From Candidatus Pacearchaeota archaeon (GTDB lineage: Archaea > Nanoarchaeota > Nanoarchaeia > Pacearchaeales > GW2011-AR1), in contig NZER01000465.1 in the NCBI GenBank assembly GCA_002690445.1, positions 1-9,754 of the forward strand: a stretch of 9,754 nucleotides of DNA. The letters run 5' to 3'. The stretch's first letter is position 1. Each line of letters begins with the position of its first letter. The notes beneath the pieces were generated by a model. It saw only the letters and a program-made list of their open reading frames with translations, was not told the DNA's origin and made no database searches. The translations under genes and the position numbers were made by a program. Of the stretch, positions 5,288 through 8,751 are shown one piece after another.

Positions 5288-7561
5288 ATGGCTAAAATGA
5301 TATTGCCCGATAATTCTCCTAAGAACAAGAGAAGGATGGTGGCTGCGACCGGAGCACAAGAGGTTCCAAATAATTTAAATCAACCATTTGCAAAAAGTGG
5401 TTTTACTACATCCACAGTAGCAAATATTCCCATAACCAAAGCTGCCCAGTTTGCAGGTTCAGGTGCAAATGCTGTGATGACACAGCCTATGTTCTTTTCA
5501 CCTTTACACACTCCCCAAAACTGGCAAATTGCATCAAAAAGAAGAGAAGTTTATCAGTGGTCAAGATTTTACTATTTCAATGAACCTAAAGTTGCTGCTG
5601 GCGTAGATTTCTATGCCAACTTCTCTATGAACGGGTTCACCCTTCAATGTAAAAATAAAAAAGTACTTAAATACTATGAGAGACTATGTAAGAAACTAGA
5701 TTTAGCAGAGAAATTAAATAGTGTTAGTCACGAGTACTTTTTATTAGGCGATGTGTTTCCCTTTCTAGAGATTGAGTGTAATAAATGTGGGGGAAGAGGG
5801 GTGACACAAGATAGGCAACCCTGTAATCACCCAGACGGTTCTTTTAAAAGTATAAAAATAATGAACCCTGATTTTGTAAAGGTCGAGTCTAATCCCCTTG
5901 CTACAGCCCCAGAATTTTATCTTATTCCAGATGATGAATTAAGAACCATTGTTCAGAGAAAAGAACCCAAAAACGTTTATGATCAACTTCCTGTTGATTT
6001 AATCGAGTTAATCAATACAGGCAGACCTATTCCTCTGTCTAGTAGAAGCGTAAGTCATATTAAACATAATGCCAGTGATTATGTAAGTTATGGTACTTCT
6101 ATGTTACAGAGGTTATTCACTTATCTTGCTTATAAAACCAAGATTATGACTGCTAACTGGATTGTAGCAGAGAGGTTAATTCTTCCGGTTCGTGTTGTGA
6201 AAGTTGGAGAGAAAGATCGTCCTGCTACTGAAGAAGATATTCAAGATATAGTTACCCAGTTAAGTGCTGTAGCTAATGATCCCAACTTAACTATAGTGAC
6301 GCATCACGCGTTTGACTATGAGTGGATCGGGGCAACGGGCAAGATCCACAATATCACTCAAGAGATGGAATACATTGGTAAAGAAATTCTAGATGGCATG
6401 ATGTTGAACCAAGCTATTCTTAATGGAGAAATGTCTAGTTATTCTAGTGCTCAAGTTGGTGTAGAAACCCTTATAAGAAGACTAGATAACTGGAGAGAGA
6501 AACTAAAAACTTGGGTAGAGGATCATATTTTTCTACCCATTGCCATGATGAGAGGTTTTGTAGACCAAGAAGAAAGCGATTTAATAGGAGAAACTGCTTA
6601 TGAGGTTCCAGAACTTATCTGGAATGATTTACAATTAAGGGACAAGACAAATAGAATACAAACCTTAATGCAGATGCAAGAGAAGGGACTTGTTTCTACT
6701 CAAACTTTGTTAGAAGAAGTTGATTTAGATTATGATACTGAGGTTCAGAAGATGAGAGAAGAACAAGTGTTAGCCAGTGCTACAGGTATGATGGGCATTG
6801 GCGGCGCAGCCAACCAAGGAACTATGGGAATGGGTGCTATGGGTGGCGGCGGTATGGGTGGAGACATGGGAGGTATGCCTCCTGGTGCTCCAGGCGCAGA
6901 AATGGGCGGCATGCCAGGCGCAGAGATGGGCGGCGGTATGGGCGCGCCCGGCGGAGAGATGGGTGGAGGTATGGGTGGTGGCATGGGCGCAGCCGCAGCA
7001 AATCTTCCTAAAATAACTAAGAGAGGAAAGGGTGGAGAAGAAGAGCAACAACAAGGGACTCCACCTCAAATGATTAAGTTAACTAAGTTAGAACAACAAA
7101 TGTATAAGGCCCTACAGGACTTAAACATACCTTATCCTTTATTCGGGCAGTTTTCTGTTAATGTGCCAGGCGAACAAAGACCCTTCGTTTTAGATTTTGC
7201 TTATCCACAAGTGGGAGTAGGTGTGGAAACAGATGGTGATATTTGGCATCAAAGAGAAGACTTAGCACAGAGAGATGCGCAGAGAGACCAGAAATTAGCA
7301 AATATAGGTTGGAGAATACTGAGATTTAAACAAGATGCTGTAGAGAGTCACATAGACGCAGTACAAGATGTTATTAAGACTAATATCATAGAGGCTCATA
7401 AAGATTTACACAAGAAAAAAGCGGAAGGTGGAGAAGAAATGATGAAATATGCTTCTGTAGATGAATATATTAGAGCCACAAATCCAGATAAGATAGGAAT
7501 TTCTATTAAAAGCTTGAATGGTTATGGAGAACTATGGTGTATAGGGGAGAAAATTGAGTGA
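5288..7561 (+). CDS. Portal protein fused to a C-terminal PD-(D/E)XK (DUF559/Vsr-like) nuclease domain
   Basis: 757 aa. Residues about 75-495 have the character of large-phage portal proteins. They include a WSRFYYFNEPKVAAGVDFYA segment early on, a basic/aromatic central part, and a distal helix (MMLNQAILNG, then LIRRLDNWREKLKTWVEDHI) matching the usual portal stem/crown order. Portals form the dodecameric DNA-entry ring at the capsid vertex. Within this region CNKCGGRG...CNH (C164, C167, C179, H181) is a probable zinc knuckle. Residues 500-572 are a Gly/Met/Ala linker. Residues 597-706 then match DUF559/Vsr-type endonucleases: D636 in FVLDFAYP, E647 and D649 in VETDGDIWH, H654, the R-D-x2-R-D pair (662-667) and GWRILRF. 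All putative catalytic residues are intact. The 47-residue tail contains MKYASVDEYI. An SD-like AGAGAGGA lies about ten bases upstream. The next gene overlaps by four bases. The portal call is fold-level recognition; the nuclease call rests on clear motifs. Confidence 0.88.
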   Translation: MAKMILPDNSPKNKRRMVAATGAQEVPNNLNQPFAKSGFTTSTVANIPITKAAQFAGSGANAVMTQPMFFSPLHTPQNWQIASKRREVYQWSRFYYFNEPKVAAGVDFYANFSMNGFTLQCKNKKVLKYYERLCKKLDLAEKLNSVSHEYFLLGDVFPFLEIECNKCGGRGVTQDRQPCNHPDGSFKSIKIMNPDFVKVESNPLATAPEFYLIPDDELRTIVQRKEPKNVYDQLPVDLIELINTGRPIPLSSRSVSHIKHNASDYVSYGTSMLQRLFTYLAYKTKIMTANWIVAERLILPVRVVKVGEKDRPATEEDIQDIVTQLSAVANDPNLTIVTHHAFDYEWIGATGKIHNITQEMEYIGKEILDGMMLNQAILNGEMSSYSSAQVGVETLIRRLDNWREKLKTWVEDHIFLPIAMMRGFVDQEESDLIGETAYEVPELIWNDLQLRDKTNRIQTLMQMQEKGLVSTQTLLEEVDLDYDTEVQKMREEQVLASATGMMGIGGAANQGTMGMGAMGGGGMGGDMGGMPPGAPGAEMGGMPGAEMGGGMGAPGGEMGGGMGGGMGAAAANLPKITKRGKGGEEEQQQGTPPQMIKLTKLEQQMYKALQDLNIPYPLFGQFSVNVPGEQRPFVLDFAYPQVGVGVETDGDIWHQREDLAQRDAQRDQKLANIGWRILRFKQDAVESHIDAVQDVIKTNIIEAHKDLHKKKAEGGEEMMKYASVDEYIRATNPDKIGISIKSLNGYGELWCIGEKIE
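6788..6997 (+). repeat. Gly/Met-rich linker coding region with 24-bp tandem repeat
   Basis: This in-frame stretch of GGN and ATG codons encodes GMGGDMGGMPPGAPGAEM-like sequence, residues 501-570 of the portal fusion. It is visibly more GC-rich than its surroundings. A 24-bp unit starting ccaggcgcaga is duplicated at 6890-6913 and 6914-6937. It separates the portal body from the nuclease and probably acts as a flexible tether. Confidence 0.85.
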
Positions 7562-8244
7562 AATTAGTTTACTCTAAAAAAACAGAGCCGAAATATGAAA
7601 CACTAAAGAAGAATAAAAAGACGCTGACAGAGGAAGAGAGAAAACAAGTTGTGGATGCTGGTGCAGTTTGGCATCATGGTCCAAATGGAGAGGAAACCCC
7701 TGCAGTTTGGAAAGCAGAGGTAGATGGCAACTCCTGGTATGTGTGCAATACACACAGAGCTTATGATTGTAAGCCAACTCTTAAAGGGGCAATTAAAGCA
7801 TATGATTTTATAGAGACTACTGCTTCTTCTGAGAAAGTAATTAAATTAGCGGGCAGAAAAAGAATCAGAGATAGAGGTATTAATTGGAAAGAAGCATATC
7901 ACGAAAAATCACAAGGACTAAAAAAGAGATACGATAAAGATATAGGAGGCAACTCCTATATGCGTTATGAAGGTCATGATTTCACCACTGATTCAGATTA
8001 CTTTATTATTATTGGTCCTGCTTTAAATAAAGAAATGAAGAAGAGGTTTTTTTCAGGTATTAAAAAACTACCTGATGACCCTAAAGCCAAAGTATATGCT
8101 CCTAGTGGGGAATATTTTCATAATATAATTTCTGCGTTTAGCCATGCCTCTGAAAAGTGGGCATTGCCTTTTCCTAAAGGTACTCCTGAGTATACACTTG
8201 CTGATTTAGCTAACATCGAAATTGCGCGTCATATTAAAGGATAG
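7558..8244 (+). CDS. Two-part phage protein: WHHGPNG-type N-terminal domain plus unknown C-terminal domain
   Basis: 228 aa with a GTG start overlapping the portal stop by four bases (GTGA); GGGGAG at 7544-7549 lies eight bases upstream. Residues 22-90 form a compact aromatic domain (LTEEERKQVVDAGAVWHHGP, then WYVCNTHRAYDCKPTLKGAI, ending ETTAS). From memory it resembles small stand-alone phage proteins of unknown function; I could not check this. A basic linker (93-107, KLAGRKRIRDRG) leads to INWKEAY (108-114), a variant of the motif repeated in the gene at 3521. The C-terminal part (120-228) contains YFIIIGPALNKEMKKRFF and ends in a probable helix LADLANIEIARH. The two halves look like a fusion joined at TTAS...NWKEA. 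No catalytic motif is obvious. Overlap with the portal gene suggests coordinated expression, not function. Confidence 0.83.
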   Translation: MKLVYSKKTEPKYETLKKNKKTLTEEERKQVVDAGAVWHHGPNGEETPAVWKAEVDGNSWYVCNTHRAYDCKPTLKGAIKAYDFIETTASSEKVIKLAGRKRIRDRGINWKEAYHEKSQGLKKRYDKDIGGNSYMRYEGHDFTTDSDYFIIIGPALNKEMKKRFFSGIKKLPDDPKAKVYAPSGEYFHNIISAFSHASEKWALPFPKGTPEYTLADLANIEIARHIKG

Positions 8245-8550: not shown

Positions 8551-8751
8551 ATGTATTTAAGTGACCTGGATAAAGGACAAAAAGGAGTTATAAGAAAAGT
8601 TTGCGACATATATATGAAAGAATTGGGTTTCATACCTGGCGCAAAAATAAAAGTTATTTCAAAGAGTCCTTTTAACGGGCCTATAGCAGTATTTATAAAG
8701 GGAACACGTTTTGCTCTTAGACTAGAAGAGGCAGCGTGTGTAATTATATAA
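8551..8751 (+). CDS. FeoA-domain (SH3-like) small protein
   Basis: 66 aa, the full length of a single FeoA domain. Family hallmarks appear in order: LSDL near the N-terminus (3-6), GQKGVI (9-14), the signature LGFIPG (25-30), a strand with KVISKSPFNGPIAV (34-47), then KGTRFALRLEEA (50-61) and the terminal hydrophobic CVII. In bacteria FeoA is a cytosolic partner of the FeoB ferrous iron transporter, and the same fold forms the C-terminal SH3-like domain of DtxR-family regulators. No feoB or iron gene is nearby here; the gene lies two bases after a helical phage protein in a virion gene cluster. A protein-protein adaptor function seems likelier than iron transport, but host-directed modulation of Fe(II) uptake is an alternative. 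Confidence 0.85.
   Translation: MYLSDLDKGQKGVIRKVCDIYMKELGFIPGAKIKVISKSPFNGPIAVFIKGTRFALRLEEAACVII

Follow-up and report, generated by a model that had tools for sequence, protein, structure and literature searches.

A Vsr-type nuclease domain that looks catalytically intact, fused in frame to a phage portal protein and kept among its relatives

The window analysed here, a 9,754-nt stretch of a contig assigned to Candidatus Pacearchaeota archaeon (NZER01000465.1), encodes a phage portal protein that continues in the same reading frame into a Vsr/DUF559-like nuclease domain. Judged from its sequence, the nuclease looks catalytically intact, and the fusion seems to have arisen once and to have been retained. 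As the likeliest explanation, to which as a whole we give a probability of about 40%, we propose that the nuclease processes the phage's own DNA at the portal vertex. Few machines of tailed viruses are as conserved as the portal, which is usually regarded as a passive DNA channel. A clade with an intact-looking nuclease on each portal subunit offers a natural test of DNA processing at the portal vertex, a task that T4 meets with separate proteins, and it raises the question of how a virion can keep a dozen nucleases beside its own genome and leave that genome uncut.

The gene, the parts of its product and the adjoining gene are listed here in window coordinates.

5288..7561, plus strand: portal-nuclease fusion gene, 757 aa, ATG start, TGA stop (ORF list; Pfam/PHROG)
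5288..5482, plus strand: N-terminal segment, residues 1-65, mostly low confidence (pLDDT mostly <60)
5438-5449, plus strand: K51-A-A-Q54, an instance of the recurrent K-x-A-[SQ] motif, within the N-terminal segment
5483..6769, plus strand: portal core, residues 66-494
6782..7075, plus strand: flexible Gly/Met/Pro/Ala-rich linker, residues 499-596 (pLDDT <50 for 501-577)
7010..7030, plus strand: basic motif KITKRGK in the linker, residues 575-581 (loose pattern in 81/164 linkers)
7076..7402, plus strand: Vsr/DUF559-like nuclease domain, residues 597-705
7193..7195, plus strand: Asp D636 (D in 169/169 non-redundant relatives)
7226..7234, plus strand: E647-x-D649 (E in 169/169, D in 164/169; intein after E647 in some relatives)
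7247..7249, plus strand: His H654 (H in 167/169; the other two are intein-interrupted at E-x-D)
7403..7558, plus strand: C-tail, residues 706-757, comprising in the model a Lys-rich helix end, K720-Y-A-S723, a small helix and a beta hairpin
7445-7456, plus strand: K720-Y-A-S723, the K-x-A-[SQ] instance in the C-tail
7558..8244, plus strand: downstream neighbour gene, GTG start overlapping the portal stop (ORF list)

In relatives the portal gene is followed by a look-alike of the 7558..8244 neighbour, with an R-K-R-I-K-D-R-G-I-like stretch recognised by eye. The head cluster of the window also holds a 66-aa FeoA-domain protein (8551-8751, E=1.4e-18) and a very acidic, E/K-rich protein of 277 aa (1280-2113) with no Pfam or PHROG match at E≤1.

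The portal assignment of the preliminary description, which had made its claim depend on a match for residues 75-495, held up. A portal match was found there; the protein matches the PHROG 16240 portal profile at E=3e-47 and the Pfam family Portal_Mu at E=6e-8, over the family cut-off. It has a portal fold, residues 87-502 of the model aligning with residues 74-515 of T4 gp20, and the portal part of the model stops near the end of gp20. The gene neighbourhood in relatives is that of head genes. In L013 a protein a few genes downstream of the portal matches the head maturation protease family phrog_18299; a TerL was detected by phrog_2 in the same record as the portal in 13 of 17 relatives; and relatives' genes resemble the decoration and capsid genes of phage G in order and length, in a comparison of order and length alone. 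In the same 17 relatives no TerL was found by PF17289 (which missed that of phage G too), by a phage G TerL query or by PF03237, nor by phrog_2 in the other 4. The phrog_18299 match of L013 sits in the N-terminal part of a protein of ~1750–2300 aa that is perhaps a protease-scaffold fusion. Proteins of this size were noted downstream of the portal at L001 13455-19487, L013 14585-20485 and L011 15191-20476, with repeated I-T-E-K-Q-L-like segments visible by eye; at L004 12653-19573 a large protease-scaffold-like gene apparently carries an intein-like insert, again by eye. As part of the explanation taken as a whole, and as tentatively, the window protein would be a portal from large, uncultured tailed phages that form a clade of their own, akin to Bacillus phage G but distinct from it.

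The C-terminal domain has the Vsr-type fold, alpha-beta3-alpha-beta-alpha, by profile, Foldseek and VIA comparison, and a PD-(D/E)XK match was found over residues 597-706, where the preliminary description had placed one. The long Gly/Met linker described there is likewise real: it spans residues 499-596, and its counterparts in 164 relatives have a median length of 107 aa (range 85–195) and a median G/M/P/A content of 71%. At L089, L094, L095, L099, L100 and L106, about 150 extra residues were seen by eye in the linker, between portal core and nuclease. E602, D636, E647, D649 and H654, the presumed catalytic set of the family, all fall in invariant columns among 90 full-length proteins. Part of the basis for assigning catalytic residues was D51/H69 of Vsr, as given in the available part of PMC11879112. 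Among 169 non-redundant proteins, D636 and E647 were each kept in 169, D649 in 164, H654 in 167, R666 in 167 and D667 in 168; only proteins covering at least 85% of the nuclease profile entered this set, which would therefore lack strongly decayed copies. In a less filtered set of 144 proteins, 84 of them retrieved using the nuclease itself as query, D636 and E647 were present in all 141 that had a letter at those positions. Mean identity in the 169 proteins was 46% for the nuclease vs 59% for the portal core: the domain drifts except at its active site, as suits an intact-looking Vsr-like nuclease of the kind first proposed. Within the portal ORF there was no match to Endonuclease_7 (PF02945), no Pfam match to a MuF domain and none to an extra DNA-binding family beside the nuclease.

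The fusion is widespread. Our main protein query was the portal part alone, to avoid bias, and 117 of the 120 matches listed, out of 559, had a nuclease-profile match; for one of the 117 (P0083) that match is partial. The three listed proteins that had none, P0123 (marked partial) and P0090 and P0106 (contigs <3 kb), end inside the linker or just before it; P0106 and P0090, whose ends look unrelated, may be cases of genuine nuclease loss. Viral contigs were scanned four times: with the whole window protein, 2 of the 6 patterns coming from its C-terminal part; twice with portal-core alignments, keeping the best 80 loci of 183 and the best 80 of 140; and with phage G gp14. Fetched loci and three deposited phage records together yielded 194 portal ORFs, of which 171 were fused in frame, 9 were cut by contig ends and 14 were without the nuclease. 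Removal of duplicates left 111 distinct portals: 93 fused, 7 at contig ends, one interrupted by a stop (L200) and 10 from the phage G group and outgroups. Thus 93 of the 94 uncut clade portals in this sample carry the nuclease in frame. In L200 an in-frame stop lies in the linker at 5549-5551, with the nuclease frame directly after it, so a stop can divide the two parts; it may be an assembly error, a true split or a codon that is read through. Some loci matched only to residue ~499, as if nuclease-less portals were common; this idea was rejected when reading of the ORFs showed a nuclease there too. PF04480 (DUF559) was matched once and only once in each of 15 of the 17 records searched, one of these being 548 kb long; it was absent from phage G and from the record of L021, where the contig ends inside the gene.

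Among 50,697 records of deposited phages, none covers 80% of the window protein and no clade member was seen; the nuclease alone at E≤0.001 matched only a helicase gene there, in two records of one Corynebacterium phage. A scan of genome contigs for a host gave no confirmed relative. Two proteins come from MAGs named 'Petrotogales bacterium' (P0095) and Competibacteraceae (P0123), names that are bin labels only. The domain annotation is already present in databases, and 17 of 84 related proteins bear the JGI name 'very-short-patch-repair endonuclease', which hides their portal nature. The view that this fusion is not a standard portal architecture agrees with the CC-licensed PMC literature searched, in which, among the papers listed, we found no printed description of it. 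The sole paper with both 'portal protein' and 'DUF559', PMC10969951, means different genes in the part available, and the available parts of PMC7824862, PMC9723584, PMC12619734, PMC7162821 and PMC13282480 do not mention such a fusion. Portal and nuclease are each of a known kind; their covalent, clade-wide combination was not found reported in the literature searched.

We built a tree of 96 portal cores with the nuclease columns excluded. All 10 nuclease-less rows fell on one side of a 100/100 branch, and the only other change of state was L200; the tree was rooted at its midpoint, and its two outermost rows, on long branches, were flagged by the program as unsure. This pattern fits one gain of the nuclease on the clade stem with no loss seen. 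Pairwise distances of portal core and nuclease correlated at r=0.71 among the 169 non-redundant proteins, with 0 of 2000 permutations as high, so the two domains have largely been co-inherited.

On our favoured explanation, the portal C-terminus would have acquired a Vsr/DUF559 (EDxHD-type) nuclease in a single fusion and retained it as a part of the virion vertex. We infer that each particle has some twelve copies, flexibly tethered to the portal crown inside the head, whose target would be the phage's own DNA at the vertex while that DNA is packaged or the head completed. In T4 the capsid encloses the stem, wing and crown of gp20 and leaves the clip outside; crown and wing touch DNA (available part of PMC9958956). 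Because the portal part of the model ends near the gp20 end and the gp20 crown is luminal, the nuclease should by homology hang inside the head. Because packaged DNA touches the crown in T4, any cut would have to depend on structure, lesion or site, or be restrained in some other way. The same excerpt describes GFP-portal fusions that fill up to about half of the T4 portal positions with prohead function intact, and a C-terminal GFP that locks the prohead unexpanded unless DNA is packaged; in view of that lock, a C-terminal domain may act structurally rather than enzymatically. The tether is probably retained in the mature head. The portal nuclease could then be the covalent counterpart of nucleases that T4 supplies in trans, the portal-bound resolvase gp49 and gp4 of head completion. 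In the parts of the sources available, portal-bound gp49 frees packaging stalled on branched DNA (PMC9958956), and gp4 is a REase-fold DNase needed for packaging (PMC7824862). The analogy with gp49 is weakened by topology: from a luminal C-terminus, DNA that has stalled outside the motor would be hard to reach.

Four functions had been proposed for the nuclease in the preliminary description: trimming DNA ends, resolving packaged branched DNA, degrading host DNA at ejection and attacking competing phages. Our results single out none of them. Attack on competing phages met with no positive evidence here, and end trimming in place of TerL is disfavoured because TerL retains its own nuclease motifs: in an alignment of the 13 TerLs (two from near-identical records) with that of phage G, the nuclease domain keeps each of its three acidic motifs, which we presume to be catalytic. 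A portal nuclease that replaces a lost TerL nuclease was accordingly rejected for these 13 records. Among resolvases, RuvC was matched in phage G (E=8e-23) and in none of the 14 clade records searched; the apparent complementation between RuvC and the nuclease is undercut because the 11 other nuclease-less records, most of them partial, also had no RuvC above the cut-off (one sub-threshold match, LR745208). Endonuclease VII was matched in 3 of the 14 clade records (one under the family cut-off), RusA in 3 (two under the cut-off) and Hjc in none. A search for T4 gp4-like TnsA nucleases gave no matches, controls included. QueC, considered for DNA modification as self-protection, was matched in 6 of the 14 (E 2e-6 to 5e-4, 5 over the family cut-off).

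The motif K-x-A-[SQ] recurs in many ORFs of the head cluster. In plus-strand head-cluster ORFs of L001–L026 it occurred 463 times vs 98±10 in shuffles (~4.7-fold) and in 149 of 352 ORFs, some of which come from near-identical contigs; the reversed pattern occurred 70 times. In the first 40 kb of the 548-kb relative, where its head genes lie, there were 22 instances vs ~6, with no enrichment in ten other 20-kb regions (22 vs ~23). L215–L226 were also among the loci noted for the motif. Within 139 portals, observed and expected counts were 104 vs 14.4 in N-terminal segments and 97 vs 4.0 in C-tails (each with the motif in 83/139 proteins), 8 vs 19.9 in the portal core, 18 vs 6.0 in the linker and 31 vs 8.9 inside the nuclease, where the excess is probably a conserved K-L-A-x stretch; all these numbers overstate independence, because shuffles disregard relatedness. 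Phage G has K-x-A-[SQ] in gp14 and a looser KTA in gp13. The motif is a candidate for either a maturation-protease site or a scaffold-docking signal; from sequence, both would fit.

A protease site bears on the explanation that we rank second and hold to be rather doubtful, namely that the nuclease is head-internal cargo, cleaved off in head maturation or still tethered, which hits host or competitor DNA at ejection in the manner of T4 internal proteins or MuF toxins. The luminal position predicted from the gp20 alignment suits it, as do the head-maturation-protease match in L013, only a few genes further downstream than the portal, and the ~3-fold enrichment of the candidate maturation motif in the linker. 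The available parts of the sources provide precedents in T4 IPI, a virion-carried protein injected with DNA (PMC9958956), and in the proposal that MuF proteins are virion-carried (PMC5576092). However, the linker has the motif in only 18/139 proteins, vs 83/139 for both N-terminal segments and C-tails, so that cleavage at the motif, should it occur, would leave the nuclease attached in most members. Moreover, no Pfam or PHROG match pointed to an immunity protein beside the portal gene, and the nuclease domain is invariable in kind among relatives.

In 80 of 248 distinct portal proteins, an insertion of 120 residues or more was found elsewhere than in the linker. Those in the portal lie near residues 91-96, 109-111, 342-355 and 381-386, and 10 of the 248 proteins have one in the nuclease, between E647 and residue 648. 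Insert ends, in the protein set and at site 647, are intein-like in most cases; the site-647 insert starts with C-[LF] and ends with [HF]-N before C, and a spliced protein would accordingly read E-C-D-G there. In P0083 such an insert begins and the nuclease never resumes. Many of these proteins have precomputed Pfam matches to intein and homing-endonuclease families. Inteins favour conserved sites, so their presence at the E-x-D motif is separate evidence of constraint there. These active-site inteins add a possible switch; that their splicing gates nuclease activity is speculation.

The wealth of intein-like inserts in portal genes (80/248) also lends something to an unlikely alternative, that the portal gene captured an EDxHD homing endonuclease, domesticated or still selfish, and kept it for promoting inheritance of the portal allele. 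The phage homing endonuclease I-Bth0305I ranks second among solved structures by profile, Foldseek and VIA. Yet in the sample the nuclease is clade-wide rather than patchy and sits at the same fusion point; 15 of 17 records have a single copy, it has largely been co-inherited with the portal, and no extra DNA-binding family was matched beside it. Homing or mobility as its present function is opposed by the clade-wide presence and the co-inheritance.

We think it just as improbable that the domain is a non-cutting DNA-binding module that holds or organises DNA at the portal or controls prohead expansion. An active tethered nuclease would endanger the packaged genome, Vsr-like folds can lose catalysis, as FASTKD4 did (available part of PMC11879112), and C-terminal additions alter T4 prohead expansion (available part of PMC9958956); but across 169 sequences D636 and E647 are invariant and H654 and D667 nearly so, and a pure binder would need none of them. 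Degradation of host or superinfecting DNA by free portal-nuclease rings late in infection is equally improbable: a head-cluster gene product must presumably be cytoplasmic before assembly, but nothing in the sequence speaks for such a role, and attachment to the portal would be needless.

The explanation we prefer remains that the nuclease processes DNA of the phage itself at the vertex. On that explanation, and with the same tentativeness, these proteins would form a distinct portal class in which the ring itself is an enzyme, with a dozen active luminal Vsr-type nucleases acting on transiting DNA; in some members an intein between the catalytic Glu and x-Asp would gate activity until the portal is made and spliced.

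Among deposited phages the closest portal is gp14 of Bacillus phage G, with 32% identity over residues 46-493. Like the window portal, gp14 has a low-complexity, Gly/Pro-rich C-terminal extension with K-x-A-S near its end; unlike it, gp14 carries no nuclease, and the 497,513-base phage G genome has no DUF559 match. The catalytic domain of I-Bth0305I (EDxHD homing endonuclease, PDB 3r3p) belongs to a homing enzyme and E. coli Vsr (1cw0, 1vsr) is a mismatch-repair enzyme, whereas the window domain is part of a virion structural protein. The modification-dependent restriction enzymes PvuRts1I/AbaSI (4oq2, 4oky, 4par) gave a weaker VIA match than 3hrl, I-Bth0305I and Vsr, and their second domain, which is for modified cytosine, was not seen in the window protein. 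MuF toxins beside the portals of temperate phages resemble the fusion in having a head-carried enzymatic C-terminal domain on a portal-linked protein (available part of PMC5576092), but their toxin C-terminus is variable, whereas the window clade has no MuF match and the same nuclease in all fused relatives. T4 gp20 with gp49 is likewise a case of a portal-held nuclease (available part of PMC9958956); there, however, the two are separate proteins and the nuclease is of another family than the Vsr-fold domain of the window, and gp49 acts on motor-stalled DNA whereas the window nuclease should face the lumen. T4 gp4 shares with it the nature of a virion-associated REase-fold DNase (available part of PMC7824862), but is a separate, TnsA-like protein, whereas the window domain is Vsr-like and fused to the portal.
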